Shown piece by piece: positions 1,440 through 22,204 of a DNA stretch of 64,000 nt. Within the stretch, counting starts at the first letter, position 1. The number at the start of each line of letters is the position of its first letter. The notes below the pieces were generated by a model that saw only the letters and a program-made list of their open reading frames with translations, ran no database searches and was not told the origin of the DNA. Both the position numbers and the translations under genes were made by a program. The stretch comes from Desulfuromonadaceae bacterium. GTDB lineage: Bacteria; Desulfobacterota; Desulfuromonadia; Desulfuromonadales; JAHYIW01. The stretch is from positions 1 through 64,000 of the forward strand of contig JAHYIW010000010.1 in NCBI GenBank assembly GCA_019429445.1, in the 5' to 3' direction.

Positions 1440-1483
1440 CGGGTAAAACGGCTACCGACGGGTAACGACCCTGGGGATGATTG

Positions 1484-2350
1484 ATGAAAATTCTCAAAGC
1501 ACAACGAGCCGGTTTTTGCATGGGTGTCGATCTGGCGCTCTGCAAGCTGAACGCGCTTATTCAGCAGGCTGAACAACGCAACACGATCTTCATCCTCGGG
1601 TCGATCATTCACAATCCCCAGGTGGTCAGGGAATATGCCGCAAAAGGGGTCATCACCGTCAATTCGCCGGATGAGATTCCGACCGGATCGACGGTGGTGA
1701 TACGCGCTCACGGCATTGCCAGGGAGATTCGCGAGACACTGGAGCAGCGGGGCATCCGGATTGTCGATGCGACCTGTCCAAAAGTGACCGCCGCCTGCAT
1801 GCAGATAAAAAAGCACACGGCAAACGGGCGCACCTTGCTCCTTTACGGTGAGGCAACGCACCCCGAAGTAAAGTGCCTGCTGAGCTATGCCGCCGGTGAA
1901 GCGCTGGTCTTCGATTCCGGTGAGGCGTGTGAGCAGCTGAATCTTGACCCGGCCAAACAATATTGCCTGGCCGCCCAGACCACCCAGGACAAAGACATTC
2001 TGCAATCGATCATCGACTGCCTGCAACAACGCAAGGAACTGGACGTGACGATTTTGCACACCATCTGCGACGCAACGCGCCAGCGTCAGGAAGAGGCGAT
2101 TCTGCTGGCGGACAAGGTCGATTTTGTGATTGTCGCGGGGGGCTACGAAAGCAGCAACACCCGGCGTCTGGTGCAGGTGGTCAGAGCTCACGGGACGGAA
2201 GCCCTGCATATCGAAAGCGCCGCCGAACTGCCGCTTGACAAGCTGCGCCACTATGCGCGTATCGGCTTGACCGCCGGCGCCTCGACGCCAAAAGAAATTG
2301 TCAATGAAATCGAGCGGGTGTTAACCTCTCTACAGGAGCATGATTGTTGA
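1484..2350 (+). CDS. ispH: 4-hydroxy-3-methylbut-2-enyl diphosphate reductase (IspH/LytB)
   Basis: A 288-residue IspH-family iron-sulfur enzyme. In the MEP pathway it reductively removes the hydroxyl of HMBPP to give IPP and DMAPP. The three cluster cysteines are present in the motifs GFCMGV (Cys12), DATCPKV (Cys98) and TICDATRQRQ (Cys195). Substrate-binding motifs IHNP, RAHG, ATHPEV, TTQ, GGYESSNT and the C-terminal TAGAS are also present, so the active site looks complete. ATG 1484 is preferred over the adjacent TTG 1481. The gene ends in a TTGA overlap with pfaD and is thus the first gene of the Pfa/Ole operon. It may be the normal housekeeping copy or a recruited paralogue; the window cannot tell. 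Confidence 0.93.
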   Translation: MKILKAQRAGFCMGVDLALCKLNALIQQAEQRNTIFILGSIIHNPQVVREYAAKGVITVNSPDEIPTGSTVVIRAHGIAREIRETLEQRGIRIVDATCPKVTAACMQIKKHTANGRTLLLYGEATHPEVKCLLSYAAGEALVFDSGEACEQLNLDPAKQYCLAAQTTQDKDILQSIIDCLQQRKELDVTILHTICDATRQRQEEAILLADKVDFVIVAGGYESSNTRRLVQVVRAHGTEALHIESAAELPLDKLRHYARIGLTAGASTPKEIVNEIERVLTSLQEHDC

Positions 2351-3960
2351 ATATTAACGCGTCAAAGCACCATCCTACGTTGGGATTTTTCCTTCCTGAA
2401 CCGGGGGGAGAGGCACTGCCCCAGGCGTTGCGCCACATCAACCGACCCCTCTACCTGCTGGCACATGATTGTGACATTGAGGTTGTCTCCGGCACAGTCG
2501 ATGCGCACGCTGCCGATCACCCCTTTACCGGCATGGTCCTCCCCTGCCCGCTTGAGAGTCTCGGTAACCGCGATTTTTGCCGCGATCACCGCCTGCGCTA
2601 TGCGTACGTGGGCGGGTCGATGGCCAAAGGGATCAGTTCGGTCGCAATGGTCGAGGCGCTGGCCGAGGCGGGCATGCTCGGTTTCTTCGGCGCCGCCGGG
2701 CTGTTGCCGGAGACGGTTGAAGAAGCCATCAATCAACTGCAAAGCCGGGTCACATCGGGGGGCTACGGATTCAACCTGATCCACAGTCCCAATGAACCGG
2801 AACTGGAAAATGCGCTGATCGACCTTTATTTGCGGCGCGGGGTGACACTGATCGAAGCCTCGGCGTTTCTCGATCTGACCTTGCCCCTGGTTCGCTACCG
2901 TACGCACGGCATTTACCGCGATGCCAACGGTTGCATCATCACCCCGAACCGGATCATTGCTAAAATTTCTCGTGAAGAGGTCGCCGCCAGGTTCTTTGCC
3001 CCACCACCGGAGCGTTTTTTGCATGAGCTGGTCGCAACACGTCAGTTGACAGCCGAACAGGCACAGTGGGCAACACAGATTCCGATGGCGCAGGATGTGA
3101 CCGTCGAAGCCGACTCCGGCGGGCATACCGACAACCGTCCGGCACTGGCATTGTTCCCGACCATTCAGGCACAAAAAAACTGCTGTCAAAACAGCTATAA
3201 TTATCCGCAACCGTTGCGCCTCGGGCTGGGCGGCGGTATCGCCACCCCCGCTGCAGCTGCCGCGGCGTTTGCGCTGGGAGCAGACTATCTGGTCACCGGC
3301 ACGGTCAATCAGGCCTGCATCGAGTCAGGAACGTGCGACGAAGTGCGCCAGATGCTGGCCGAAACCCGTCAGGCCGATGTCACCATGGCCCCGTCCGGCG
3401 ATATGTTTGAAATGGGGGTCAAGGTACAGGTCATCAAACGCGGCACGATGTTTTCGATGCGCGCTGCCAAGTTGTATGAACTTTACCGCAGCTATAACAG
3501 TATTGAGGAGCTGCCCGCTGAAGAACGGCTGAAGCTCGAAAAAACGATCTTTCGCAAGGATCTCGATCAGGTCTGGGAAGAAACCCGCAGTTTCTTTGAC
3601 CATCGCGACCCACGCCAGCTGGCCAAGGCCGAACGCGATCCGAAATACAAACTGGCGCTGGTCTTTCGCTGGTATTTGGGGCAATCACCGGTGTGGGCCA
3701 ATCGGGGCGAAACGACGCGAAAACTCGATTACCAGATCTGGTGCGGTCCGGCGATGGGCGCCTTCAACGAATGGGTTAAGGGGTCGCTACTTGATCCTCC
3801 CGCGCAGCGGCGGGTCGCTACAGTGGCATGGAATATTCTTTTTGGGGCGGCGGTTTTGATCCGCGCCAATCAACTTAAACTTCAAGGGGTTCGTCTCGAC
3901 GCTGAGGCAACACTCGTAGCTCCCCTTGAAATCGACCACATCAAGGAGTTTCTCAGTTGA
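2347..3960 (+). CDS. pfaD: PfaD, trans-acting enoyl reductase of PUFA synthase
   Basis: A 537-residue FMN-dependent enoyl reductase of the 2-nitropropane dioxygenase-like TIM-barrel family. It reduces enoyl-ACP intermediates for the Pfa synthase. Family hallmarks include YVGGSMAKGISS, GFNLIHSPNEPELE, EADSGGHTDNRP, GLGGGIATP, VTGTVNQACIESGTCD, FEMGVKVQVIKRGTMF and the C-terminal IWCGPAMGAFNEWVKGS. The start is a TTG, either 2344 or 2347. AGGAG at 2334-2338 is 8 nt from TTG 2347, and TTG 2347 overlaps the ispH stop as TTGA. The 3' end overlaps pfaA in the same way. Having the reductase first, before the megasynthases, matches the myxobacterial Pfa1-2-3 order rather than the marine pfaABCD order. 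Confidence 0.95.
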   Translation: MNINASKHHPTLGFFLPEPGGEALPQALRHINRPLYLLAHDCDIEVVSGTVDAHAADHPFTGMVLPCPLESLGNRDFCRDHRLRYAYVGGSMAKGISSVAMVEALAEAGMLGFFGAAGLLPETVEEAINQLQSRVTSGGYGFNLIHSPNEPELENALIDLYLRRGVTLIEASAFLDLTLPLVRYRTHGIYRDANGCIITPNRIIAKISREEVAARFFAPPPERFLHELVATRQLTAEQAQWATQIPMAQDVTVEADSGGHTDNRPALALFPTIQAQKNCCQNSYNYPQPLRLGLGGGIATPAAAAAAFALGADYLVTGTVNQACIESGTCDEVRQMLAETRQADVTMAPSGDMFEMGVKVQVIKRGTMFSMRAAKLYELYRSYNSIEELPAEERLKLEKTIFRKDLDQVWEETRSFFDHRDPRQLAKAERDPKYKLALVFRWYLGQSPVWANRGETTRKLDYQIWCGPAMGAFNEWVKGSLLDPPAQRRVATVAWNILFGAAVLIRANQLKLQGVRLDAEATLVAPLEIDHIKEFLS

Positions 3961-6900
3961 AGGATAACAGCGGAGAACAAAACATTCAGTCGGCAGCAAC
4001 AGCGCCGCTGGCCATTGTCGGGATCGGCTGCCTCTTTCCCCAGGCAGGAGACCAAGGGACATTCTGGACCAATATCAAAAACGGTGCCGATGCCATCACC
4101 GAGGTTCCCGCAACCCACTGGCGTTCCGACGATTATTTCGATCCGAACCCCAAAACCCCGGACAAGGTGTACGCCAGATGCGGCGGTTTCCTCTCCCCGG
4201 TCGACTTTAACCCGCGGGAATACGGCGTGCTGCCAAACGCGCTGGAAGCGATCGACACCTCGCAGCTGCTCGGTCTGGTCGCCGTCGATCAGGCGTTGCA
4301 GGATGCCGGCTACACCCGCGAGAAAGACTTCGATCGCGAACGGGTCAGTGTGATTCTCGGTGTCACCGGCACCTTGGAGCTGGTCGTGCCGCTCGGTGCA
4401 CGTCTCGGTCATCCACGCTGGCGTGAAGCGCTTAAAGATGCCGGAATCGCCGATGCCATCGCGGCAGATGTCATGCAGCGCATCAGTGATTCATACGTCC
4501 CCTGGCAGGAAAATTCCTTCCCCGGACTGCTTGGCAATGTGGTCGCCGGACGGATCAGCAAACATTTTGACTTCGGCGGCACCAACTGTGTCGTTGATGC
4601 GGCGTGCGGCAGTTCTCTGGGCGCACTTAACCTTGCCGCGCTCGAACTCGCTGCGGGCAAGACGGACATGGTGATCACCGGCGGGATCGACACATTCAAT
4701 GACATCTTCATGTACACCTGTTTCAGCAAGACTCCAGCGCTCTCCCCCTCCGGGCACGCTCGCTCCTTCTCCGCCGAGGCCGATGGCACCACCCTGGGGG
4801 AAGGGTTGGGAATCGTCGTTATCAAGCGACTGGCCGATGCCGAACGTGACGGCGACAAAATCTACGCCCTCATTAAGGGGATCGGTTCATCCAGTGACGG
4901 GCGCGGGGTTGCCATCTATGAGCCAAGTGCTGAAGGGCAACAAAAAGCACTCCGGCGTGCCTATGAGCAGAGCGGTGTCGACCCGCGCACCATCGAACTG
5001 ATTGAAGCCCACGGCACCGGCACCAAGGTCGGTGATACCGTCGAAGTCTCTGCCTTGAAAGAGGTTTTCGGCACGGCGGATTTCCCCTGGTGTGCGATCG
5101 GTTCGATCAAATCGCAGATCGGTCACACCAAGGCCGCAGCCGGTTCCGCCGGACTGATCAAGGCAGCACTGGCGCTCTACCACAAAACGCTGCCACCAAC
5201 GATCAAGGTTACCCGCCCCCAGGACATCATCAGCGCCGCACATTCGCCATTCTACATCAACACCACAGCGCGTCCGTGGATTCCGCTGGGCGATTATCCG
5301 CGCCGCGCCGGAGTCAGTGCGCTCGGTTTTGGCGGTAGTAACTTCCACTGCCTGCTCGAAGAGCATCACGCCCTCAAGACTGTGGCTGACTGGCAGGGCG
5401 ATGTCCAGCTCGTCGCCTTCAGTGGTCCCGATGAGGCCACCCTGGAAAAGGCGCTGGAAGCGTTTCCGACCAGCGGGGCATGGAGCGACCTGCGCCTGGC
5501 GGCGGCCCACAGTCGCCGTCAATTCGATTCACGGCAGACCTGTCGTCTGATTCTGGTGCTGGAACAGGCCCAGGCACAACCCGCCGCGCAGATTCAGGGA
5601 GCCCTGACCATGTTGCGCACCCATTGTGGGCACGACGCGTGGCACACGCCGGACGGCAGCTTTTTTGCCCGGAGCGAAATCGGCGGCCAGCTGGCGATGC
5701 TCTTCCCTGGTCAAGGGGCGCAATATCCGGGAATGCTGAAAGATATGGCGCTGCAATTTCCAGAATTTCTCGACACATTCACCGCTGCCGATCGGGCCTT
5801 CACGACCAACAGCGACGGAAAGCACGGGCGACTGACAGAGCTGGTCTATCCGCGCACCAGCTTTGATCAGGCTGGCGCTGAGCGGAATCACGCAAAACTT
5901 CAGGCAACGGAGGTTGCGCAACCCGCCCTCGGTGCGGTCAGCCTCGCTGCACGCAATGTGCTGGCCACTTTCGGCGTGGTGCCCGACGCTTATGCCGGAC
6001 ATAGCTACGGCGAACTGACGGCACTCTGCTGCGGCGGTTATTTTGACAGCGCCACCTTGCACGGTCTGTCCCATCTGCGCGGTGCATTAATGGCCGACGG
6101 GGAAGGCGATCGCGGTTCAATGTTGGCGGTTTCCGCTCCCCTTGCACAGCTTGAAGGGTTCCTTGCCGATTCCGGATTGCCCCTGGTTATAGCCAACCGC
6201 AACACCCCTGAACAGGGCGTTCTTTCCGGTACGACAAAAGATATCGAGCAAGCGGCAGCACTCCTTGACGCCCAGGGCATAAGCTACAAGCGCCTCGCGG
6301 TTGCGGCAGCCTTCCATAGTGAACTGGTGGCCGCCGCCGCAGAACCGTTCGGCACGCGCTTGAACGCGATTGCATTCAGTCGGCCGGCCACTCCGGTTTA
6401 TGCCAACACCACCGGCGCGCCCTACGCGCAAAATCCCGACGAAGTACGGCAGCTGCTGGCTCGGCAGTTGGCCTGCCCGGTCGATTTCGTCGCCGAGATC
6501 GAGGCTATGTACGCCGCCGGTACGCGCATCTTCCTGGAGGTCGGCCCCGGTGCCCGCCTGACCGCGATGGTCAGGGCCATCCTCGCTGAACGCCCCCATC
6601 AGGCTTTCGCTCTCGATGCCTCCAACGGCAAGCGTTCGGGAATCTGTGATCTGGGCCGCGCGCTGGCACAACTGGCGACACTCGGTCACCCGGTCGATCT
6701 GAACCGCTGGGATGAGGGCTATGCCACCCTGCGCCAATCGCGCCCGGAACAGAAACGTGGCATAACCGTCTCGTTGACTGGTGCCAACCATTTCAAGGCC
6801 CCGCCCAAACGACCGGCGCTGCCACAATCGGCAACCAACGCCGGTGCGCCCGCGCCGACGTCCGCGGCAGACGCAGCCCCCTTTGTCAAAGCTGCCGTTG

Positions 6901-9900
6901 CGGCGCCCGACCAGCCAGCGGTCATTGCCGATAACGCTTCGCTGCATACCGCCCTGCAACTAACCCAACAGAGCTTCCAGGCATTGCAAACGCTGCAAGA
7001 ACAGACCGCGCGCCTCCATCAGCAGTTTTTGTCCGGGCAGGAATCGGCGGCGCGCTCCTTTCTCCAGCTGGTTGAGCAACAGAATCAGTTGTTGCACGGA
7101 CAACAGCCTCCGTTCAGCTCGACAGCGCCGAGCGTACCGACCGCGCCACCGCTCCAGGCACCGCCCGCAGCTACGCTTGCGGCAGCGGCCGCCGCTGACA
7201 CCACTGCCGTTTCTTCGGTCGCCCAACATCCCCCGGTTGCGCTTGATCGCACGGAGATTGCCGCCACGCTACTCGCGGTGATTGCGGAGAAAACCGGCTA
7301 TCCGGAAGAGATGCTCGATCTGGAGATGACCCTCGATACCGACCTCGGGATCGATTCAATCAAGCGGGTGGAAATCCTTTCCGCCCTGCAGGAAAAACTC
7401 CCTGATGCTCCGTCGGTCAAACCGGAAAATCTCGGTGTCTTGCAGACCCTTGGTCAGATCGTCGCCCACCTGGCGGCTGGAAGAGTGGACGCTGCGGCAA
7501 CGCGGCAGACCATCCCGCAGGTGCTCGACAGTAACCGGGTCGCAACCGTCCTGCTCAGCGTCATTGCCGAAAAGACCGGTTATCCGCTGGAGATGCTGGA
7601 GCTGGAGATGGCGCTCGACACCGATCTGGGGATCGATTCAATCAAGCGGGTGGAAATCTTGTCCGCCTTACAGGAACAACTGCCCGATGCTCCGGCAGTC
7701 AAACCCGAAGACCTCGGCGTGCTGCAAACCCTCGGTCAGATTGTCACCCACTTGAGCGCAGCAAGCGGGAGAAGCTCGGCGCCGCAACCGGTCGCGAGCG
7801 CGACCGGCCCGCTCAACCGGGAGGTTGTTGCCACCGCACTGCTCAACGTTATTGCCGAAAAAACCGGTTATCCGCTGGAGATGCTGGAACTGGAGATGGC
7901 GCTCGATACCGATCTGGGGATCGATTCGATTAAACGCGTCGAAATCCTTTCTGCCTTACAGGATCAGTTGCCGGGAGCACCCGCTATCAAGCCCGAACAC
8001 CTCGGCACCTTGCAGACGGTCGCCCAGATTGTCGATTTTCTGGCCAGCGTTTCCGGGGCTGCCGAACCGGCACCGCAACCGGGAGCGCCTTTTGAACTCC
8101 CCTCGGTGGAGAGCGGGATTGAGCGTAAGGTCCTTAAAGCTGTGCCGTTGCGCACCACAGGGAGGCGCGAACCGATACAACTGCCGCAAAGCAGCGTCGT
8201 CTGGGTCAGTGATGATGGCAGCGCGCTGACGACCGCGATCTGTCAGCAACTGAACGCCCGGCAGTTGAACGCACAAAAAATCAGCATCGATCAGCTCTCC
8301 AGCCTCCCTCCTGCGGAGCAACTGTCCGGGCTGATTATCCTGACGCCGCAGTCCGGTGCCAGTGCAGCGTTTCTGCAGCAAGCGTTTCAACTGCTGCAAC
8401 TGGCGGAGCCGGGACTCAAGCTTTGCGCCGACCAGGGGGGAGCGATTCTGGCCACGGTTTCACGGCTGAACGGCCACTTTGCCCTGCCCGGTGGCGGGCC
8501 GGTCAGCGACCCCCTCTCGGGGGGGCTGGCCGGACTTGCCAAAACCGCCGGACACGAGTGGCCGACAGTCAGTTGCAGAGCTTTCGACCTGGCGACCGAC
8601 CTGGAAGATGTCGAGCAAACGGCGCAAGCACTGCTTGCCGAACTGCTGGTCGAGGGTCCGCAGGAAGTCGGCTTCACCCCTGATGGACGTATCACCCTCA
8701 GTCTGACCGAAGAGTCACTCGTCGGCGAAACACACGATTCACCGGTCGGCTACGGTGATGTCGTCGTCATCAGTGGCGGCGCACGCGGGGTGACCGCCGA
8801 AGTCGCGGTGGCTTTGGCCGCTGCAAGCCACGCCACCTTGCTCCTGTTGGGACGCAGCGCCGCAGCGCACGATGAACCGGTCTGGCTCGACGGGCTGAAC
8901 AGCGAAGGTGACATTAAAAAGGCGCTTATCGCCAACAGTCACGGACCACTTAAGCCCAAAGAAGTCGGCCAGCAATATCAGCAAGTTCTTGACCAGCGCG
9001 AAATCCGCAATACCTTGCGCCGCATCAAGGAAGCGGGCGGTCAACCGATCTATCGCTGCGTCGATCTGCGCGACGCCGCTGCCGTCGCTCCGGTGATCAA
9101 CGCTATCCGCGAAGAATACGGCCCGATCAAAGGGCTGATCCATGGGGCAGGTGTGCTGGCGGACCGGCTGATCAAGGACAAGACCACCGAACAGTTTAGC
9201 CAGGTGGTCGCTACCAAGGTGGCGGGACTTGAAAATCTGCTGGCGGCATTGACCGGGGAGAAGCTGCGCTTTATGGTGATGTTCTCGTCATCCACCGGTC
9301 GTTTCGGGCGGACCGGTCAGATCGACTACGCCGTCGCCAACGAGGTCCTTAACAAGATGGCTCAGCAACAGGCCGCCCGGCGCCCTGACTGCCGCGTACT
9401 GTCTTTGAACTGGGGTCCGTGGGATGGTGGGATGGTCACCCCCGCGCTGAAAAAGATCTTTGCCGAAGAGGGGATCGCGGTGATCGACTTGCAGGCCGGA
9501 GCGCACTATCTGGTCGAGGAAATTTCCACCCCGCCCGGCGGCCCGGTTGAGCTGGTCATCCTCGGCGGTCGCCAGGCGGCCAGTGATACAAACAAGGTGT
9601 CAACCCATGAAAATATTTATGTCTCCAAGGCTTTCGATCTGGAAATCTCCATCGCGAACTTCCCGTTCCTGGCGTCCCATGTGATCGATGGAAAAGCGGT
9701 TTTGCCGATGGCAATGATTATCGAATGGATGGCCCACGGTGCCATTCACAATAATCCGGGATTGCGTTTTCACGGCTTCAACGATCTGCGCATCCTGAAA
9801 GGAGTGACACTTGAAGATGGACAGATCCATACCCTTCAGGTAACCACCGGCAAGGCGTTCAAGAGCGGCGGCGTGCATGTCGTGCCGGTCGAACTTTCCG

Positions 9901-10487
9901 GGGTTACGGCAGCCGGTCAGTACTTTATCCACTCCCGCGCCCGCATGGTGCTGGCAGCCAAGCTCCCGGAAGCCAAAGTCGCTGCCGAGCGTCAGGAGGC
10001 ATTGGCCGTTTATGCCCACCCGGTGAGCGAAATCTACCACACGGGTCGCCTTTTTCATGGTCCGGCTTTTCACAGTATTCGTGAAGTTATCGGCTGTTGC
10101 GCTGACGGCATTGCCTCCCTGGTGCGCCCGGCGCCCCTGCCGTCCGAATGGATTAATCAGCCGTTGCGCAACACCTGGCTGGCTGATCCTCTCGCGCTTG
10201 ACAGCAGCTTTCAGTTGATGATCCTCTGGAGTTTTGAACGTTACCAGGCGGCCTCCCTGCCGGTCTTTGCCGGACGTTATCGCCAGTACCAGGATAAATT
10301 CCCGACCACCGGGGTTGAAGTCCGGATCACGGTTACCCATCAGAGTGCCGACAAGGCGGGGGCGCAAATTGACTTTGTCGATCCCGCCGACAGTACCTTG
10401 ATCGCGCGTATCGAAGAATATGAATGTGTGATCGATGCGTCGTTAAATGCAAGCTTCCAGCGAAATAAGTTGCGGGGAGCCGCCTGA
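3957..10487 (+). CDS. pfaA: PfaA, polyunsaturated fatty acid megasynthase (KS-AT-ACP3-KR-DH)
   Basis: A 2176-residue type I iterative synthase. The ketosynthase (about 15-455) carries Cys217 in DAACGSS, His352 in EAHGTGT and His390 in IGHTK. The malonyl-type acyltransferase (about 575-890) has GQGAQYPG and Ser683 in GHSYGE. An Ala/Pro- then Gln-rich linker follows. Three near-identical carrier domains have DTDLGIDSIKR with phosphopantetheine serines at 1134, 1228 and 1324. The ketoreductase (about 1420-1850) has GGARGV and Tyr1791. A C-terminal double-hotdog dehydratase has His1908 in HVIDGKAVLP and Asp2082 in LALDSSFQ. The start is TTG 3957, with AAGGAG at 3943-3948, inside a TTGA overlap with pfaD. 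Three carriers is at the low end for Pfa synthases, which usually have three to nine. Confidence 0.95.
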   Translation: MKDNSGEQNIQSAATAPLAIVGIGCLFPQAGDQGTFWTNIKNGADAITEVPATHWRSDDYFDPNPKTPDKVYARCGGFLSPVDFNPREYGVLPNALEAIDTSQLLGLVAVDQALQDAGYTREKDFDRERVSVILGVTGTLELVVPLGARLGHPRWREALKDAGIADAIAADVMQRISDSYVPWQENSFPGLLGNVVAGRISKHFDFGGTNCVVDAACGSSLGALNLAALELAAGKTDMVITGGIDTFNDIFMYTCFSKTPALSPSGHARSFSAEADGTTLGEGLGIVVIKRLADAERDGDKIYALIKGIGSSSDGRGVAIYEPSAEGQQKALRRAYEQSGVDPRTIELIEAHGTGTKVGDTVEVSALKEVFGTADFPWCAIGSIKSQIGHTKAAAGSAGLIKAALALYHKTLPPTIKVTRPQDIISAAHSPFYINTTARPWIPLGDYPRRAGVSALGFGGSNFHCLLEEHHALKTVADWQGDVQLVAFSGPDEATLEKALEAFPTSGAWSDLRLAAAHSRRQFDSRQTCRLILVLEQAQAQPAAQIQGALTMLRTHCGHDAWHTPDGSFFARSEIGGQLAMLFPGQGAQYPGMLKDMALQFPEFLDTFTAADRAFTTNSDGKHGRLTELVYPRTSFDQAGAERNHAKLQATEVAQPALGAVSLAARNVLATFGVVPDAYAGHSYGELTALCCGGYFDSATLHGLSHLRGALMADGEGDRGSMLAVSAPLAQLEGFLADSGLPLVIANRNTPEQGVLSGTTKDIEQAAALLDAQGISYKRLAVAAAFHSELVAAAAEPFGTRLNAIAFSRPATPVYANTTGAPYAQNPDEVRQLLARQLACPVDFVAEIEAMYAAGTRIFLEVGPGARLTAMVRAILAERPHQAFALDASNGKRSGICDLGRALAQLATLGHPVDLNRWDEGYATLRQSRPEQKRGITVSLTGANHFKAPPKRPALPQSATNAGAPAPTSAADAAPFVKAAVAAPDQPAVIADNASLHTALQLTQQSFQALQTLQEQTARLHQQFLSGQESAARSFLQLVEQQNQLLHGQQPPFSSTAPSVPTAPPLQAPPAATLAAAAAADTTAVSSVAQHPPVALDRTEIAATLLAVIAEKTGYPEEMLDLEMTLDTDLGIDSIKRVEILSALQEKLPDAPSVKPENLGVLQTLGQIVAHLAAGRVDAAATRQTIPQVLDSNRVATVLLSVIAEKTGYPLEMLELEMALDTDLGIDSIKRVEILSALQEQLPDAPAVKPEDLGVLQTLGQIVTHLSAASGRSSAPQPVASATGPLNREVVATALLNVIAEKTGYPLEMLELEMALDTDLGIDSIKRVEILSALQDQLPGAPAIKPEHLGTLQTVAQIVDFLASVSGAAEPAPQPGAPFELPSVESGIERKVLKAVPLRTTGRREPIQLPQSSVVWVSDDGSALTTAICQQLNARQLNAQKISIDQLSSLPPAEQLSGLIILTPQSGASAAFLQQAFQLLQLAEPGLKLCADQGGAILATVSRLNGHFALPGGGPVSDPLSGGLAGLAKTAGHEWPTVSCRAFDLATDLEDVEQTAQALLAELLVEGPQEVGFTPDGRITLSLTEESLVGETHDSPVGYGDVVVISGGARGVTAEVAVALAAASHATLLLLGRSAAAHDEPVWLDGLNSEGDIKKALIANSHGPLKPKEVGQQYQQVLDQREIRNTLRRIKEAGGQPIYRCVDLRDAAAVAPVINAIREEYGPIKGLIHGAGVLADRLIKDKTTEQFSQVVATKVAGLENLLAALTGEKLRFMVMFSSSTGRFGRTGQIDYAVANEVLNKMAQQQAARRPDCRVLSLNWGPWDGGMVTPALKKIFAEEGIAVIDLQAGAHYLVEEISTPPGGPVELVILGGRQAASDTNKVSTHENIYVSKAFDLEISIANFPFLASHVIDGKAVLPMAMIIEWMAHGAIHNNPGLRFHGFNDLRILKGVTLEDGQIHTLQVTTGKAFKSGGVHVVPVELSGVTAAGQYFIHSRARMVLAAKLPEAKVAAERQEALAVYAHPVSEIYHTGRLFHGPAFHSIREVIGCCADGIASLVRPAPLPSEWINQPLRNTWLADPLALDSSFQLMILWSFERYQAASLPVFAGRYRQYQDKFPTTGVEVRITVTHQSADKAGAQIDFVDPADSTLIARIEEYECVIDASLNASFQRNKLRGAA

Positions 10488-10489
10488 GC

Positions 10490-13400
10490 ATGAAGCACGG
10501 AAAATCTGTTGCAATTGTCGGGGTCGGCGGCATTTTTCCCATGGCGCCGACCCTGGGTCGTTTCTGGGAGACAATCACCGCCAATATCAGCACCTCGCGT
10601 CAACCGCCGCAAGGGCGCTGGTTGCTCGACGCCGATGAAATTTTTGCTCCGACGGTCGGCGCGCAGGACAAGATCTACTCTAAAAAAGGGTGTTTTATTG
10701 ACGACGAGGACGCACTGAGCGCAAGCGCCGGTCTCACGATCGACGCCGATTTTCTGTCCGGGCTTGATCCACTTTTCCATTTATTGCTGCGCACCGGTCA
10801 CCAGGCGTTCAGTGATTCCCGCACCGACCACCTCGACCGTCAGCGGGTCGGTGTTATCATCGGCAACCTCGCCCTGCCGAGTGAATATTCCTCGACCCTG
10901 GCGCGCGACTATCTGGGCCGCACCTTTACAGAACAGCTGCCGGGCATCGGCGCTCCCCCCCGACTGCCAGGCGTTAACCCGCTGAATCGTTACGTCGCCG
11001 GCCTCCCTGCCGGCATCCTCGCCAAGGCGCTCAATCTTGGCGGCACCTGCTATACCCTCGACGCGGCCTGCGCCTCATCGCTCTACGCCGTCAAGCTGGC
11101 GATGGACGAATTGCTGTCAGGGCGCGCCGATGCCATGCTCACCGGCGGGCTGTCGCGGCCGGACTCCCTGTATACGCAAATGGGTTTCTCCCAGCTGCAC
11201 GCCCTCTCCCCCTCTGGCACCTGTTCCCCTTTCGATCGTAACGGTGACGGTCTGGTGGTTGGGGAAGGGAGCGGCATGTTTTTACTCAAGCGGACCGCCG
11301 ACGCGGTGCGCGACGGTGACCACATCTACGCCGTCATTCGCGGCATCGGTCTCTCTAACGATCTCGGCGGCACCCTGCTCGCCCCGGCTTCCGAGGGGCA
11401 ATTGCGGGCGATGCGCGCCGCCTACAAGCAGGCCGGCTGGTCCCCCGCCGATGTGGATCTGATCGAGTGTCATGCGACCGGAACCCCGGTCGGCGATGTC
11501 GTTGAATTTGCGAGTCTGAAAAACCTGTGGGGTGATTCCGGCTGGAAAGCGGGGCAGTGTGTCATCGGCTCGGTCAAATCGAATATCGGACATCTGCTCA
11601 CCGCCGCCGGTTCCGCCGCACTGATGAAGGCCCTGCTGGCGATCAAGGAACGCACCCTGCCACCGACCGCCAATTTTACCCATCCGGCCAAAGGGATCGA
11701 TTTGGATGCAAGTCCGTTTAAGATTCTGTCACACACCCAGGACTGGAAAGCGCGCAAGAAAGGGCAACCCCGCCGGGCAGCGGTCAGTGCTTTTGGCTTC
11801 GGCGGCATCAACGCCCATCTGCTGATCGAAGAATGGATTCCACATCGACCGGAAAAAAGTTCCGTCGCCTACCTCCCATCATCGCAGAAAAAACAGCAAC
11901 CGATCGCCATTGTCGGCATCGGTGCGCATTTTGGTGCGTGGGATTCCCTTGACACCTTGCGCAGTCGCCTGCTCGGTAGCAGCGCCGCGGTCGAACCAAC
12001 CTCGCCAGCCCGCTGGTGGGGGGCCGACCAAAGTTGCTGGTTTGCCGACGCAGGCTTGAACAAGACCGATTTCAAAGGTTTTTTTACCAACAAAGTGCAG
12101 GTCAAGGCGGGGACCTTCCGCATCCCGCCCAAGGAAATTAAAGACATGCTGCCGCGCCAGTTGTTGATGCTCAAAGTCGCGGACGAAGCCCTGCAAGATG
12201 CCGGGATAAAGAACGAGGAACTGCTCTTCACCGGCGTCTTCATCGGCGCCGGACTCGATCTGAACGCCACCAATTTCAGCTTCCGCTGGTCGATCCAGAA
12301 ACTGGCGCCACAGTGGGCAAAGGAATTACAGCTTGATCTGTCTGCTGCCGAGATGGCGGCATGGGTTGACGCCCTGCGGGAGTCAGCCGGTCCCCCGCTG
12401 AGCGCCAACCGGGTGATGGGCGCTCTGGGCAGCGTTGTGGCCAGCCGGGTCGCCAAGGAATTCAAAGTCGGTGGTCCCAGCTTCACCATTGCGAATGAAG
12501 AAAATTCCGGATTACGAGCGCTTGAGGTCGGCGTTCGGGCACTTCAGGAAGGTTCCATCAACCGGGCCATTGTCGGAGCCGTCGATATGGCCGGTGATCT
12601 GCGTGCCGTGCTTGGCCAACATGCTGCCTGGCCCTTTTCGCGCAGCGGAACGGTACGCCCCTTCGATAAAGATGCTGACGGCACGGTGGTCGGCGAGGGA
12701 GCGGCCGCCGTCATCCTCAAGCGCCTTGACGATGCCCGCCAGGACGGTGACCGGATCTACGCCGTCATCGGGGGAATCGGCAGCGCTGTCGGCGGAGAGG
12801 CGGAATCAACCAGCCCGGAGCAGCAAGCCTATACCCGCGCCATTGAACACGCCGTTAACGAGGCGGGCGTTCGCCCGGAAAGTGTGAGTTACCTCGAAAC
12901 CGACGGCAGCGGCCTGGCGCGCCATGACGAACTCGAAGCCAACGCTCTCGGCGCTTTTTTCGGGACGACGCAGAACGCGAATCCCTGCTATATCGGCAGC
13001 GCCAAGGGGGATGTCGGCCACGCAGGGGCGGCGGCAGGGTTGGTGTCACTGATAAAAGCAGCGCTGTGTCTCGATCAGAAAATCCTTCCGCCGCTACGCA
13101 ACGTACAGACATTGCGCTACAACTGGGTACGGGGGAAACGCAACTTTGTTGCTCCCGAATCCGCCCGCTTCTGGCTGCGCAATCGGGCCGAGGGACCACG
13201 GCGGGCGCTGGTCAGTGGCCTCGGCAGTGACGGCAGCTGCTCACAGGTGATCCTCGAAGGGATCGATGACACCTCCAGCAGGGTGAGATCGCTCCCTGTC
13301 GCGCGTCCGCTCGGTGCCCTTGATGAAGGTCTTTTCGCGCTGACAGCAGATGATGTTGCCGGGCTGCTGGCCCTGATCAGTCGCCTTCAGCAGTTCGCAG

Positions 13401-16400
13401 CACTGGCTCCCGAGGGCACTATCGACCAGCTGGCAGCACAGTGGTATCACGAAGTCGGCCTCGCTCACCACCACCGGTTATGTGTGGCACTGGTGGTCAC
13501 TGACCGCACGGAGTTATTTGAACACCTTGAGCAGGCGGCGCTGGCACTGCGCGACAACCCGGACGGTGCGCTGGGCGGAAGCGCGCCCCCCGCTCTTGCC
13601 GCGACCCGTGATCGGCTTTTTTACACCCCCCGACCGCTGGCACCCGAAGGGAAGGTAGCCTTTGTCTTCCCCGGCTCCGGCAATCATTTTGCCGGAATGG
13701 GGTGCGAACTCTCCGCCCGCTGGCCGGCAATCTATCGCCGCCAGGACAGTGGCAGCGAGTTTCTGGCCCGTCAGTTTTTGCCCGAGCACTTCTGGAAAGC
13801 GGTGCTCGCCGAAGCGGTACACGACAACCATAACGCCCTGGTGATCGGTCAGGTTGCCGTCGGCACCGCAATCAGCGATCTGGTACGCAGTTTCGGTATT
13901 GAACCGCAGGCGGTGAGCGGCTACAGTCTCGGCGAATCAGCGGGTCTCTTCTCCCTCCAGGCCTGGAAAGATCGTGACGGCATGGCGCGGCGACTTGCAG
14001 AATCCCCTCTCTTTACCGAGGAGCTGGCCGGTCGCTGTACAGCGGCCCGCAAAGTCTGGAACCTGCATCGCGATGAGTCCGTCGACTGGGTACTCGGTAT
14101 TGTCGATGTTCCCGCCGACCGGGTGCGGCAGGCACTGATCAACAAAAACCGCGCTTATCTGTTGATCGTCAATACTCATCGGGAGTGCGTTATTGGTGGT
14201 GATCGCCGTCAGGTTGAAGCGCTGGCACGCGAGGTCAACGGCCACTTTTTTCCGTTGCGGGGGGTCACCACGGTCCATTGTGAAGTCGTCGCACCGGTGG
14301 CAAAAGCGTACCGCGAGCTGCATCTCTTTCCGGTTAGCGCACCACCGGGGATCGATTTTTACAGTTGCGCACGGGGTGAACGTTATCCGCTCACCACCGA
14401 CAATGCCGCCGATGTGATCCTTGCACAGGCACTGACGACGGTTGATTACACCCGCGTGATCAAGCGCGCTTACGCTGACGGCGTGCGCATTTTTCTCGAA
14501 ATGGGCCCCGGCAATTCCGGTAGTCGCATGATCAGCAGTATTCTCGAAGGTCAGCCGCATCTGGCCCGCGCTGCCTGCTATCCCGGCCCGCCGCCGACGT
14601 CATTGATACTGCGCCTGTTGGCCAACTGTCTGGCGGAACGCGTGCCGGTGAATCTGGCGGCACTTTACCCCGAGACGGTCAGGAGTATCGCCCCACCCGC
14701 CGGAGCGTACATCGAGACGACCATCGGCGGCACCCCCTTTACCCCCGCGCCGCCGCCGCAACCATCCCCCCCGGCGACGGCGACGGAGCCCTTTGCAACA
14801 ACCGAAAGTTTATCGGCCAGCAGCGCTGTGCCGGATCCGGCGTCAGCCCCAAGCGCCACGCCACTGGTGGCGCAGCTGGCAGCATCGGGTGCCCTTAACG
14901 CACAAACGCATGGTGCCTACCTGAACTTCGCCACCACCATGGAACAGATCCTGACCGCGAATATTCATCGGCAGTTGACGCTGCTCCAGCAGTTGGCAGC
15001 CAACGGCGCAACGCTCCCGCAGCTGGAGTCGCTTGATTTCACCGCGCCCGGGATCACGCCGCAAGCGCCGGTTTTCACCCCGCTGGCACCACGCAACACA
15101 CCGGTTCCGCCGACCGCTGCACAACCGCCACTCTTTGACCGCGCACAGTGTATGGAATTTGCGATCGGCTCCTGCGCCGCGGTGCTCGGTCCGGAGTTCG
15201 CCGAGGTTGACAGCTATCCGACACGCGTCCGCCTGCCGGACGAACCGCTGATGCTGGTTGACCGCATCATGGCGGTCGAGGGGGAACCCCGTTCGATGAC
15301 GCATGGTCGGGTGATCACCGAACATGATGTCACCGCCGACCGCTGGTATCTTGACGGTGGCCGTATGCCGACCTGTATCGCCGTCGAGGCGGGACAGGCG
15401 GACCTTTTTCTTTCCGGCTATCTGGGGATCGACTTGATCAGCAAGGGGCAGGCGGTCTACCGGTTGCTCGATGCGGTGGTCACCTTCCATCGCACCCTGC
15501 CGGTTCCGGGCGACGTGATCCGCTACGATATCAGCATCGATGAATTTTTCCGTCAGGATCAGACCTATCTGTTCCGTTTCAATTTTGAAGGCACGGTCAA
15601 CGGCGAACCGCTGCTGTCGATGCGTAACGGCGTTGCCGGTTTCTTCACCGCGCAGGAACTGGCCGCCGGGCAGGGGATTGTCCATACCCAACTCGATCTG
15701 TTGCCACAACCCGGCACCCGGCCTGCGGACTGGAGCGAACTGGTACCACTGGCAGCGGAGGCCTACAACGAAGACCAGGTTGCCGCCATTTACGCCGGTG
15801 ACCTCGCAACGGCCTTCGGCGCCCCCTTCAGAACGTTACCGTTGACCAGGCCCTACACCTTGCCGGGCGGTTATCTCAAGCTGGTTGATCGGGTTATTGA
15901 GCTCGATCCGCAAGGCGGTCGCTACGGCCTCGGCCTGATCCGTGCTGAAATGGATATCCACCCCGACGCCTGGTTCCTCACCAGTCATTTCTGCGACGAC
16001 CATGTCATGCCCGGCACCCTGATGTATGAGTGCTGCATGCACACCTTGCGGATTTATCTGCTGCGCATGGGGTGGGTCGGCGCGGCGGGCAGCACCTGGT
16101 GCGAACCGCTCCCCGGCGTCAACAGCGGACTGAAATGTCGCGGACAGGTGGTTGAAACCACACGGACCGTGACGTATCAGGTGAGTATCAAGGAACTCGG
16201 CTACGCTCCGGAGCCGTTTGCGATCGGCGATGCATTGATGTTTGCCGACGGCAAGCCGATTGTCGAGATTCCGAACATGTCGCTGCGACTGGCAGGGTTG
16301 ACCCGCGAAAAGGTTGAACGTTGGTGGGCACAGAATACGCCTGAAATTCCGGAAACAGCCGCTAAACAGGTGCTTTACGGTGACGATAAAATTTTAGCCT

Positions 16401-17464
16401 ACGCCATCGGCAAGCCGTCGGAGGCGTTCGGTGAACCGTACCGCATCTTCGATCAGCAGCGCAAGATTGCCCGCCTGCCGGGTCCGCCCTTCCAGTTTCT
16501 CGATCGCATCACCGCCGTCAGCGGCGAAGCGTTCAAACTGGTCGCCGGAGCGACCTGTACCGCAGAGTACGATGTACCGCCTGACGCCTGGTATTTCAGT
16601 GCCGGGCGGCAACCGGAAATGCCGTTCAGCATTCTGCTCGAAACCGGCCTGCAACCGTGCGGCTGGCTGGCGGCTTATCTCGGTTCGGCGCTGACCAGTC
16701 AGACCGATCTCAAGTTTCGCAATCTCGACGGCAACGCCATCCAGCAGCGTCCGGTCACCCCCCAAACCGGGACGCTGACGACTCAGGTGCAGATAACGCG
16801 TATCGCCAGCAGCGGCGGAATGATTATCCAGAATTACGATTTCACGATCAGCGATCAGCACGGACCGGTCTACACCGGGGATACGGTGTTCGGCTTCTTC
16901 TCGGCGGAATCCCTGGCCCAGCAGGTCGGGGTGCGCGATGCCCAACCGTATGCACCGGCGGCAGTGGAAGCAGACCGGGCCGAACAATTTGACTATCCGC
17001 GCGCGGCCCCCTTCCCAAAAACGCAACTGCGAATGATCGATCGCGTTGAACAGTTCATTGCTGACGGCGGGCCGCACGGACTCGGTTTTATTCGCGGCAG
17101 CAAGCGGGTCGATGCGGACGAATGGTTTTTCAAGGCCCATTTTTATCAGGATCCGGTCTGCCCTGGTTCGCTGGGGCTCGAATCGTTTTTGCAGCTGCTC
17201 AAGGTGGTAGCGGCAAAACGCTGGAACGTCACCGCTGCAAGCATCTTCACCACCCCGGTTTGCGGGGAAAAACATCGCTGGAACTATCGTGGCCAGATTG
17301 TTCCGCAGAACAATCTGGTCCTGGTCGAGGCGCTGGTGACGGCGGTCGATGATGCACAACAGCAGCTCACCGCGAACGGCTACCTGTCAGTCGACGGTAA
17401 AATCATCTATCAGATGAACGATTTCAAACTTCGTTTACAGCCGTCGTTTGAAAACCCTGCTTGA
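10490..17464 (+). CDS. pfaC: PfaC-type megasynthase (KS-CLF-AT-four hotdog DH)
   Basis: A 2324-residue subunit. KS1 (about 5-450) has Cys194 in LDAACASS. A chain-length-factor-like domain (about 465-905) lacks the catalytic Cys: Ala-Asn-Glu-Glu-Asn at 668-672 replaces it. A PfaB-like acyltransferase (about 1050-1390) has FPGSGNHFAGMG and Ser1146 in GYSLGES. A Pro/Ala linker leads to four FabA-like hotdogs, starting near 1560, 1780, 1990 and 2175. Only the second and fourth keep the FabA histidine (His1833 in TSHFCDDHVMPG and His2217 in KAHFYQDPVCPG); the first and third have Gly-Arg there, as in known PfaC double-hotdog pairs. The architecture equals myxobacterial Pfa3 without its terminal acylglycerol-phosphate acyltransferase. 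It starts 3 nt after pfaA. Confidence 0.93.
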   Translation: MKHGKSVAIVGVGGIFPMAPTLGRFWETITANISTSRQPPQGRWLLDADEIFAPTVGAQDKIYSKKGCFIDDEDALSASAGLTIDADFLSGLDPLFHLLLRTGHQAFSDSRTDHLDRQRVGVIIGNLALPSEYSSTLARDYLGRTFTEQLPGIGAPPRLPGVNPLNRYVAGLPAGILAKALNLGGTCYTLDAACASSLYAVKLAMDELLSGRADAMLTGGLSRPDSLYTQMGFSQLHALSPSGTCSPFDRNGDGLVVGEGSGMFLLKRTADAVRDGDHIYAVIRGIGLSNDLGGTLLAPASEGQLRAMRAAYKQAGWSPADVDLIECHATGTPVGDVVEFASLKNLWGDSGWKAGQCVIGSVKSNIGHLLTAAGSAALMKALLAIKERTLPPTANFTHPAKGIDLDASPFKILSHTQDWKARKKGQPRRAAVSAFGFGGINAHLLIEEWIPHRPEKSSVAYLPSSQKKQQPIAIVGIGAHFGAWDSLDTLRSRLLGSSAAVEPTSPARWWGADQSCWFADAGLNKTDFKGFFTNKVQVKAGTFRIPPKEIKDMLPRQLLMLKVADEALQDAGIKNEELLFTGVFIGAGLDLNATNFSFRWSIQKLAPQWAKELQLDLSAAEMAAWVDALRESAGPPLSANRVMGALGSVVASRVAKEFKVGGPSFTIANEENSGLRALEVGVRALQEGSINRAIVGAVDMAGDLRAVLGQHAAWPFSRSGTVRPFDKDADGTVVGEGAAAVILKRLDDARQDGDRIYAVIGGIGSAVGGEAESTSPEQQAYTRAIEHAVNEAGVRPESVSYLETDGSGLARHDELEANALGAFFGTTQNANPCYIGSAKGDVGHAGAAAGLVSLIKAALCLDQKILPPLRNVQTLRYNWVRGKRNFVAPESARFWLRNRAEGPRRALVSGLGSDGSCSQVILEGIDDTSSRVRSLPVARPLGALDEGLFALTADDVAGLLALISRLQQFAALAPEGTIDQLAAQWYHEVGLAHHHRLCVALVVTDRTELFEHLEQAALALRDNPDGALGGSAPPALAATRDRLFYTPRPLAPEGKVAFVFPGSGNHFAGMGCELSARWPAIYRRQDSGSEFLARQFLPEHFWKAVLAEAVHDNHNALVIGQVAVGTAISDLVRSFGIEPQAVSGYSLGESAGLFSLQAWKDRDGMARRLAESPLFTEELAGRCTAARKVWNLHRDESVDWVLGIVDVPADRVRQALINKNRAYLLIVNTHRECVIGGDRRQVEALAREVNGHFFPLRGVTTVHCEVVAPVAKAYRELHLFPVSAPPGIDFYSCARGERYPLTTDNAADVILAQALTTVDYTRVIKRAYADGVRIFLEMGPGNSGSRMISSILEGQPHLARAACYPGPPPTSLILRLLANCLAERVPVNLAALYPETVRSIAPPAGAYIETTIGGTPFTPAPPPQPSPPATATEPFATTESLSASSAVPDPASAPSATPLVAQLAASGALNAQTHGAYLNFATTMEQILTANIHRQLTLLQQLAANGATLPQLESLDFTAPGITPQAPVFTPLAPRNTPVPPTAAQPPLFDRAQCMEFAIGSCAAVLGPEFAEVDSYPTRVRLPDEPLMLVDRIMAVEGEPRSMTHGRVITEHDVTADRWYLDGGRMPTCIAVEAGQADLFLSGYLGIDLISKGQAVYRLLDAVVTFHRTLPVPGDVIRYDISIDEFFRQDQTYLFRFNFEGTVNGEPLLSMRNGVAGFFTAQELAAGQGIVHTQLDLLPQPGTRPADWSELVPLAAEAYNEDQVAAIYAGDLATAFGAPFRTLPLTRPYTLPGGYLKLVDRVIELDPQGGRYGLGLIRAEMDIHPDAWFLTSHFCDDHVMPGTLMYECCMHTLRIYLLRMGWVGAAGSTWCEPLPGVNSGLKCRGQVVETTRTVTYQVSIKELGYAPEPFAIGDALMFADGKPIVEIPNMSLRLAGLTREKVERWWAQNTPEIPETAAKQVLYGDDKILAYAIGKPSEAFGEPYRIFDQQRKIARLPGPPFQFLDRITAVSGEAFKLVAGATCTAEYDVPPDAWYFSAGRQPEMPFSILLETGLQPCGWLAAYLGSALTSQTDLKFRNLDGNAIQQRPVTPQTGTLTTQVQITRIASSGGMIIQNYDFTISDQHGPVYTGDTVFGFFSAESLAQQVGVRDAQPYAPAAVEADRAEQFDYPRAAPFPKTQLRMIDRVEQFIADGGPHGLGFIRGSKRVDADEWFFKAHFYQDPVCPGSLGLESFLQLLKVVAAKRWNVTAASIFTTPVCGEKHRWNYRGQIVPQNNLVLVEALVTAVDDAQQQLTANGYLSVDGKIIYQMNDFKLRLQPSFENPA

Positions 17465-17536
17465 TTGTCCACTGTACAGCAGGTATTATGACTAGATTTG
17501 CGTAGAGAAAATTATGACATTGAGATGGTGGTACGA

Positions 17537-18580
17537 ATGAGATACTCACGCGTTTATATTGAATCGGTCGGCTACGAACTGGCACCGATCGTGGTCACCT
17601 CGACAGAGCTGGAACAGCGCCTGCGACCAATGTACGAGGCCCTGCATATCGCACCGGGGCAACTCGAAGTGTTGACCGGGATCCGTGAACGCCGTTGGTG
17701 GAAGCCGCACACGCCGGTCTCGGAAGGAGCCATTGCCGCCGCGAAGAAAGCGTTGCGCGAACGCAACATTTCACCGACCGATATCGGGGCGGTGGTCTAC
17801 GCCGGGGTGTGTCGCGAGCATTACGAACCGGCAACCGCATGTCAGGTGGCGGCGGCGCTCGGGGTGCATGGCGAGGCGGCGATTTATGACACGTCCAACG
17901 CCTGCCTCGGGGTACTCAACGGCGTCCTCGATATCGCCAATCGCATCGAACTGGGACAGATCCGCGCCGGTCTGGTGGTCGCCTGTGAAAGTTCCCGCGA
18001 GATCAATGAGACGATGATCCAGCAGATGCTGGACAAACCGACGATGGAAAGTTTTACCACGTCACTGGCCACATTGACCGGTGGATCGGGTGCCGCAGCC
18101 GTCCTTTTGACCGACGGTTCGTTCACCCCGGCGCGGCGGCCGCGGCTGCTCGGCGGGATCAATCTGGCCGAGCCCCAGCATCACAAACTCTGTCGCTGGG
18201 GGATCAGATCGGACGCCCCGGAACATCATGTCCCCTATATGCAAACCGATGCTGTCGCGGTCATGAAGCACGGCGTGGAACTCGGCAAACGCACCTGGGA
18301 CGCGTTTGTCAAGGAACTTGATCTGACCACCGAGCGCTTCGACAAAGTCATTTGTCATCAGGTTGGTGAAGCTCACCAGAAACTGATTCTGCAAACGATC
18401 GGGGTGGCTGCGGAGAAAGATTTCTCCACCTATGAGTTTCTCGGCAATATGGGGACGGTGTCACTGCCGGTCACCGCCGCCATCGCCAAAGAACGTGATT
18501 TCCTCCTCCCCGGCGACATGGTCGGTTTTCTTGGCATCGGCAGTGGCCTCAACTGCCTGATGCTCGGTATTCAATGGTAA
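17537..18580 (+). CDS. oleA: OleA, head-to-head acyl condensing thiolase-like enzyme
   Basis: A 347-residue KASIII-like thiolase-superfamily enzyme. OleA performs a non-decarboxylative Claisen condensation of two fatty acyl-CoA molecules to a 2-alkyl-3-ketoacid. The nucleophile is Cys123 in TSNACLG. A conserved Glu sits in CREHYEPAT at the position of the family's partner-subunit Glu, followed by His in ICHQVGEAH and Asn in LGNMGT. ATG 17537 gives the usual OleA start (MRYSRVYIESVGYELAP). An in-frame TTG at 17500 would add 13 residues and is less likely. It is the first gene after the Pfa megasynthases, separated by 72 nt, which suggests the Pfa product is its acyl source. Confidence 0.93.
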   Translation: MRYSRVYIESVGYELAPIVVTSTELEQRLRPMYEALHIAPGQLEVLTGIRERRWWKPHTPVSEGAIAAAKKALRERNISPTDIGAVVYAGVCREHYEPATACQVAAALGVHGEAAIYDTSNACLGVLNGVLDIANRIELGQIRAGLVVACESSREINETMIQQMLDKPTMESFTTSLATLTGGSGAAAVLLTDGSFTPARRPRLLGGINLAEPQHHKLCRWGIRSDAPEHHVPYMQTDAVAVMKHGVELGKRTWDAFVKELDLTTERFDKVICHQVGEAHQKLILQTIGVAAEKDFSTYEFLGNMGTVSLPVTAAIAKERDFLLPGDMVGFLGIGSGLNCLMLGIQW

Positions 18581-18656: not shown

Positions 18657-19550
18657 ATGACCGATCTTTATCCCTTTAAAAATAATTTTCTTGATCTAAA
18701 CGGCCAGCAATATCACTACCTTGACGAGGGCAACGGCGATCCGGTCGTGATGGTGCACGGCAACCCGAGCTGGTCATTCTACTACCGCGATCTGGCCAAA
18801 TCGTTACGCGAGCACTACCGCGTTATTGTTCCCGACCATATCGGCTGCGGACTTTCAGACAAACCGGGGGACGACGCTTACAGCTATACCCTCAAGCAAC
18901 GGGTCGATGATCTTGAGTCGTTGCTTGACCAGCTGGAGGTGCGTTCACGCATCACGCTGGTGGTTCACGACTGGGGCGGCATGATCGGGATGGCCTACGC
19001 CAGCCGTCACCCGGAACGGATCGCGCGGCTGGTGATTCTCAATACCGCCGCTTTTCATCTCCCCGCCGGGAAGGCTTTCCCCCTGGCACTGAAAATCTGC
19101 CGCGCTACCGCGTTCGGCGCCTTCCTGGTGCAGCAACTGAATATGTTTGCCCTGCTGGCGGCCCGGGTCGGCTGCAAGCGTAACCCGCTGCCCCCCGCAA
19201 TTCGCGGTGCCTACTGCGCCCCTTACGACACCCCCGCCAACCGCATCGCCACCCTGCGCTTTGTCCAGGATATCCCGCTCAAACCGGAAGATCCCGGCTA
19301 CGCACTGATCAGCGAGATTGAGAGCGGGCTGGAACGTTTTGCCACCCTGCCGATGATGATCTGCTGGGGGCTGAAAGATTTCGTCTTTGACGTCCATTTT
19401 CTCAACGAATGGCAACGCCGTTTCCCGCATGCCGAAGTTCATGCTTTTGCCGATTGCGGTCACTATATTCTGGAAGATGCCAAAGAAGAGGTCATTCCGC
19501 TGATCACACAGTTTCTGGCTGCGCACCCCCTCGACGGAAAGACCCCGTGA
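18657..19550 (+). CDS. oleB: OleB, beta-lactone decarboxylase (alpha/beta hydrolase)
   Basis: A 297-residue alpha/beta hydrolase resembling haloalkane dehalogenases. OleB decarboxylates the cis-beta-lactone made by OleC to the final olefin. The Asp nucleophile is Asp105 in VVHDWGGMIG, the oxyanion-region motif is HGNPSWSFYYR, and the catalytic His is His269 in DCGHYILE. It starts at ATG 18657 after a 76-nt gap with no strong Shine-Dalgarno, and ends in a GTGA overlap with oleC. OleB and OleC are separate genes here, whereas some other bacteria fuse them. Confidence 0.92.
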   Translation: MTDLYPFKNNFLDLNGQQYHYLDEGNGDPVVMVHGNPSWSFYYRDLAKSLREHYRVIVPDHIGCGLSDKPGDDAYSYTLKQRVDDLESLLDQLEVRSRITLVVHDWGGMIGMAYASRHPERIARLVILNTAAFHLPAGKAFPLALKICRATAFGAFLVQQLNMFALLAARVGCKRNPLPPAIRGAYCAPYDTPANRIATLRFVQDIPLKPEDPGYALISEIESGLERFATLPMMICWGLKDFVFDVHFLNEWQRRFPHAEVHAFADCGHYILEDAKEEVIPLITQFLAAHPLDGKTP

Positions 19551-22191: not shown

Positions 22192-22204
22192 GCAGGTGAC
22201 CGGC

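Follow-up and report, generated by a model that had tools for sequence, protein, structure and literature searches.

A lipid-operon-linked xenologue has, we consider very probable, recurrently displaced the housekeeping ispH gene in the order Desulfuromonadales, and the copy analysed here would be the sole, essential HMBPP reductase of its host. The gene heads a pfa-ole cluster near the start of a 64,000-nucleotide stretch (the window; positions 1 to 64,000 of contig JAHYIW010000010.1) drawn from the 2.9 Mb, 99.99% complete genome of a Desulfuromonadaceae bacterium (G000). Legible in the compared genomes are a sole ispH copy of recognizable family with its active site preserved, its linkage to pfaD through a tight joint, its foreign affinity, an empty native locus and repeated losses; displacement is the simplest account of the case and calls for no new chemistry. 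The cluster comprises the following features:

1473..1477, + strand: GGGGA, read directly, the probable ribosome-binding site of ispH
1484-2350, + strand: ispH, an intact IspH reading frame with an ATG start, 288 amino acids
2334..2338, + strand: AGGAG in the 3′ end of ispH, before either pfaD start, read directly, the probable ribosome-binding site of pfaD
2347..2350, + strand: overlap of the ispH stop and the pfaD TTG start (TTGA), with an alternative TTG at 2344
2347..3960 (TTG start), + strand: pfaD, enoyl reductase of a PUFA-type synthase (TIGR02814, 626 bits, cut-off 449)
3957..10487, + strand: pfaA, with KS, acyltransferase, three ACP stretches and KR
10490..17464, + strand: pfaBC-like fusion, with two KS-type stretches, a weak acyltransferase match and four FabA-like dehydratase stretches
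17498..18580 (start approximate), + strand: oleA-like thiolase/KASIII (NF006720, 477 bits)
18657..19550, + strand: oleB-like alpha/beta hydrolase, by profile matches
19550..21205 (mechanical ORF from 19409), + strand: oleC-like AMP-binding ligase (NF006754, above cut-off)
21202..22191, + strand: oleD-like reductase (NF042422, 448 bits, below the cut-off of 580)
22061..22879 (mechanical ORF; true start probably downstream), + strand: phosphopantetheinyl transferase (PF01648)

An initial annotation had described an IspH at the head of this cluster that overlaps pfaD through a TTGA joint, and both the reading frame and the joint were recovered as described. The ispH stop codon TGA occupies 2348-2350 and, given the second in-frame TTG at 2344, the overlap measures 4 or 7 bases; the pfaD/pfaA joint (3957-3960) is also TTGA. 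All the components by which a Type I pfa cluster is recognized, namely pfaD, pfaA and a pfaBC fusion with DH domains, are present in the window, the acyltransferase stretch of the fusion scoring 31.8 bits, slightly below its cut-off of 32.7. The oleABCD genes encode the expected kinds of protein in the expected order, with OleC and OleD falling under the cut-offs of olefin-specific NCBIfam models (685-688 bits for the oleC-like protein with olefin beta-lactone synthetase models, below the curated cut-offs).

The 1484-2350 product matches PF02401 (LYTB; E 2.3e-81, 273.5 bits, cut-off 24.5) and TIGR00216 (ispH_lytB; 255 bits, cut-off 188). Its predicted fold (pLDDT 90.3) has 3dnf_B as its best PDB match in Foldseek (TM 0.87), and every one of the 12 Foldseek matches at E <= 0.001 is an IspH. 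The protein can be aligned with solved IspH structures with its active-site residues intact, and the earlier impression that the HMBPP motif residues were preserved holds well beyond the window: twelve residues that we take to be cluster ligands, substrate contacts or catalytic groups are identical in 30/30 pfa-linked IspH proteins, comprising those of 29 genomes of the order and of locus L057. In E. coli numbering, C12, C96 and C197 are presumably the three cysteines of the [4Fe-4S] cluster, and we take H41, H74, H124, E126, T167, S225, N227 and S269 to be the substrate residues. Compared with its congener G001, ispH shows 8 non-synonymous and 11 synonymous differences, small counts that give a Ka/Ks of 0.23, higher than that of pfaD (0.10) yet well below 1.

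A protein search and a PF02401 profile search of G000 each returned a single IspH match and no second ispH, upholding the suggestion in the initial annotation that this might be the only ispH of the genome. Dxr and IspG are present in G000, and HMG-CoA reductase was not found there. Over the first eight sole-copy genomes examined, our check of the MEP pathway, which consisted of Dxr and IspG searches, found Dxr in 8/8 and IspG in 7/8, with HMG-CoA reductase in 0/8; the genome in which IspG is missing (G034) is 91% complete. Given a single ispH in a genome that is 99.99% complete, encodes IspG and Dxr and lacks HMG-CoA reductase, its product is, as judged from gene content, almost certainly the essential HMBPP reductase of the cell, the enzyme that completes the MEP pathway.

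To place this arrangement in the order, 136 genomes were surveyed for IspH (E <= 0.001), with a match in 125. The matches form two classes: one shares 60% identity or more with the window protein (60-100% in its 29 full-length members), and the other, the native type, shares about 36-43%. The genomes that encode these 29 full-length proteins are hereafter called carriers (n = 29), a count outside which stand G090, with a partial match at 59% over residues 1-119, and G008, whose 54% identical protein groups with the Desulfovibrionales type and in which no pfaD was found. In 29/29 carriers pfaD lies directly downstream of the linked ispH on the same contig and strand. pfaD itself is present in 71/136 genomes, 42 of them without linked ispH; 40 of these 42 have a native-type ispH, and the two without any IspH match are 59% (G065) and 71% (G068) complete. 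Since most relatives are draft assemblies, 'absent' in these counts can mean 'unassembled', a reservation from which the empty native locus described below is independent. One genome, G067, has a second, more distant pfaD (G067:C5:21245-22678, 51% identity) in addition to one at 78%. A scan of genome_contigs yielded 53 loci, of which the eight at 61% identity or more (L049-L055, L057) have pfaD adjoining ispH, seven of them being from the same genomes as G001, G064, G017, G063, G056, G046 and G095; the remaining 45 (58% or less, mostly Desulfovibrionales) have no pfaD in the DNA compared, which was short for some.

The joint between the two genes is tight in nearly all carriers. A 4-base stop-start overlap is possible in six (G000, G001, G017, G056, G063 and G064) and an 8-base one in G031, and in 15/29 the ispH stop falls within TAGGAG with a pfaD start candidate soon after; in G046 the joint is loose, the nearest start candidate being about 120 bases away. 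Open frames of 816-840 amino acids in several carriers raised the possibility of an IspH-PfaD fusion, which was ruled out by an in-frame TAG between the genes at the junctions read, and read-through by pyrrolysine was set aside because this TAG mostly lies inside TAGGAG (15/29), likely the ribosome-binding site of pfaD. On the other side of ispH, the neighbours read in 21 carriers, with gene names recognized from sequence and not from profile searches, vary by family: pgsA and a transglycosylase-like gene in much of f7, others in f1, f2 and f12. Because these upstream neighbours differ between families, the conserved unit appears to begin with ispH. In G120, which has pfaD and native ispH only, pgsA stands directly upstream of pfaD, and related carriers read pgsA-ispH-pfaD; a search of non-carrier clusters for remnants of a pfa-linked ispH gave nothing beyond chance (13 stretches at E <= 1).

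In the window, the space immediately upstream of ispH is occupied by a 156-amino-acid ORF (969-1439) with a repeated W-x-G...KPxGK-like motif, which is 95.5% identical in G001, has no Pfam match and did not appear upstream of ispH in any other carrier examined. Further upstream, an ORF at 13-672 on the minus strand resembles a REP-associated (TnpA-like) transposase and is followed by a 52-base sequence duplicated exactly at a spacing of 54 bases (680-785). Scanning 650-2500 for promoters and terminators brought out nothing remarkable, with three promoter-like sites against 1.0 expected, none adjoining ispH and two of them falling in this duplicate.

The native locus of the relatives reads tyrA-aroA-cmk-ispH-rpsA-sppA (names again recognized from sequence). 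Native-type IspH was not found in 26/29 carriers; the other three, G031, G046 (7% estimated contamination) and G056, have both types, with the native gene in place in each. A cmk match was obtained in all sole-copy carriers but G094, G095 and G101 (23/26), and in 21 of the 26 aroA, cmk and rpsA are contiguous without ispH, cmk and rpsA being separated by 114-426 bases; in G064 and G089 the stretch stops after cmk. On a cmk+rpsA tree (a quick tree of 54 rows, of which three are less than half filled), the absence of native ispH, scored for 24 rows with G064, G089 and the partial G090 among them, requires 5 changes, at least 4 of them forced by starred branches, and the native gene would have been lost about five times. 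The sister of the double carrier G056, G107, retains between cmk and rpsA (L161) what is left of a truncated native ispH, about 30-40 codons; no other IspH was found in this 96% complete genome, and with neither an intact native nor a detected pfa-linked ispH it speaks against displacement unless some of its sequence is missing. For annotation purposes, ispH next to rpsA cannot be assumed in this order.

Phylogenetic analysis points to a foreign source for the linked gene. In a phylum-wide IspH tree of 62 rows, the pfa-linked proteins form one clade (bootstrap 100, SH-aLRT 99) that lies within a clade with Desulfovibrionales-type IspH (100/100), the IspH native to the class being placed elsewhere (94/75). 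A single clade of pfa-linked and native IspH is rejected (AU p 1.1e-50), and nesting within Desulfovibrionales IspH does not differ detectably from a sister position (AU p 0.59); by this placement the donor is of Desulfovibrionales type, not nameable to species. Mapped on a PfaD tree, the carrier state needs 6 changes, and gain and loss are not cleanly separable on it. We read the distribution as a single early acquisition after which lineages lost either the one ispH or the other, with repeated recapture as an alternative history that could also apply. Outside the family, the phylum member G267 (L172, L189) encodes two IspH proteins, one of the Desulfovibrionales type (56%) and one at 40% identity. 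Both the foreign origin and the displacement of the native gene had escaped the initial annotation.

These results favour a scheme of recurrent displacement in which an IspH xenologue of Desulfovibrionales type came to adjoin pfaD in the pfa-ole cluster of the order, and lineages for a time would have had two ispH genes able to stand in for each other. In several lineages, including that of the window, the native copy would then have been deleted from aroA-cmk-ispH-rpsA and the pfa-linked copy would have taken over; many other lineages have just the native copy. Because isoprenoid synthesis would hang on the gene that opens the lipid operon, growing cells are expected to transcribe this operon and to translate ispH and pfaD in concert. 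We infer catalytic activity, co-transcription and translational coupling for the window ispH. Persistence of the linkage could reflect coupling or hitch-hiking, either through shared expression or because an essential first gene protects the operon. If this scheme is right, a foreign copy in a specialized lipid operon took on the part of an essential gene of core metabolism, apparently on about five separate occasions; deleting that operon would also cost isoprenoids, and a secondary lipid cluster may in this way become hard to lose. The scheme also makes co-expression of polyene hydrocarbons and isoprenoids testable in these anaerobes, and the replicate natural replacements offer a system for studying why genes move.

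A plainer possibility is that a foreign ispH landed before pfaD and persists at that site by chance, without any regulatory or functional significance. The initial annotation had anticipated such incidental placement should the genome hold no second ispH and relatives with the same cluster have unlinked ispH genes; there is indeed no second copy and many cluster-bearing relatives have an unlinked native gene, but another large group of relatives possesses the linked gene, its native counterpart having been lost. The 42/71 pfaD genomes without linked ispH speak for chance, as does the comparison of PfaD from 28 carriers and 18 non-carriers, in which no residue separates the two groups (the largest frequency difference, 0.52, is at a variable position) and none convincingly marks a contact with IspH. 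Against it, adjacency holds in 29/29 carriers at IspH identities down to 60% even though the upstream gene changes between families, the joint is tight (stop-start overlap in 7/29, stop inside TAGGAG in 15/29) and it is the native gene that has repeatedly been lost. On this comparative record, the position of ispH before pfaD is not incidental, and we regard chance persistence as rather unlikely.

Persistent linkage could suggest that the pfa-linked IspH also serves polyene synthesis beside HMBPP reduction, for example by acting for PfaD as a reductase or electron carrier, and the cysteines C105, C131, C149 and C161 (below) count in favour of this idea. Because 42 of the 71 pfaD genomes have the cluster without linked ispH, however, the distribution argues against a need for the gene in cis for polyene synthesis, a role that native IspH could fill in trans, and the HMBPP catalytic residues are all unchanged; we know of no step in the pfa or ole pathways that requires reductive dehydroxylation. 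We consider such moonlighting quite improbable, and the proposal in the initial annotation of a paralogue with a new dehydroxylation role gains no support from an IspH that is the only one found in 26/29 carriers and is missing beside pfaD in 42/71 genomes. An ancient duplication within the order, with differential loss of two paralogues in place of transfer, would account for the 3/29 carriers that hold both copies, but the union of the pfa-linked clade with Desulfovibrionales IspH (100/100), the rejection of a clade with the native type (p 1.1e-50) and the mostly Desulfovibrionales identity of the nearest unlinked relatives in the genome_contigs scan make it highly improbable. Recurrent displacement remains our preferred reading, and with linkage in 29/29 carriers and a joint tight in nearly all of them, co-regulation of isoprenoid with hydrocarbon supply is possible.

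Clade-specific cysteines give a hint of something beyond plain replacement. In a comparison of 30 pfa-linked with 33 Desulfovibrionales-type, 23 native and 12 other IspH proteins, C105 (30/30), C131 (27/30) and C149 (29/30, lacking in G122) of the pfa-linked proteins occurred in 0/68 others, and C161 was found in 30/30 pfa-linked, 8/33 Desulfovibrionales-type, 2/12 other and 0/23 native proteins. C131 stands in place of the glycine of the HPEVxG motif, and the carriers without it (G031, G046 and G056) are exactly the three that keep native ispH, a coincidence expected by chance once in 3654 for 29 genomes by a post hoc hand count that ignores relatedness. We could speculate that these cysteines pair as redox-responsive thiols or provide a further metal or cluster site, making the enzyme a specialized HMBPP reductase that ties isoprenoid flux to the polyene machinery, although we judge this unlikely. 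Were it true, one operon would co-ordinate quinone and undecaprenyl precursors with polyene hydrocarbon, and loss of C131 where native ispH is kept would represent relief from that duty.

Compared with known IspH/LytB proteins (PF02401, TIGR00216; 3dnf, 3ke8), the window protein shares the fold, the length, the three cluster cysteines and the diphosphate and catalytic residues, and differs in its genomic position, leading a pfa-ole operon, as well as in C105, C131, C149 and C161. A search of titles and abstracts, covering few subscription papers or bioRxiv preprints, found no description of ispH inside a pfa cluster. In the parts of PMC3098273 available to us, the Type I secondary-lipid synthase cluster with ole genes in Deltaproteobacteria includes a pfaBC fusion, Geobacter bemidjiensis produces hentriacontanonaene, and Type I is suggested as the source of the olefin precursor. 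The window cluster resembles that cluster in its pfaD, pfaA, pfaBC-type fusion and ole genes, and differs in its ispH, which goes unmentioned in those parts of the source, the word 'isoprenoid' being absent from its main text. A partial precedent is lytB1 (Rv3382c) of Mycobacterium tuberculosis, which according to PMC3470408 lies in a horizontally acquired isotuberculosinol operon and complements E. coli lytB, with the housekeeping lytB2 kept. Both cases place a lytB gene inside an operon for a specialized product; the M. tuberculosis operon makes a terpenoid, to which lytB has a metabolic link, and lytB2 is retained, whereas the window operon is of the fatty-acid/hydrocarbon kind and the native ispH is gone.
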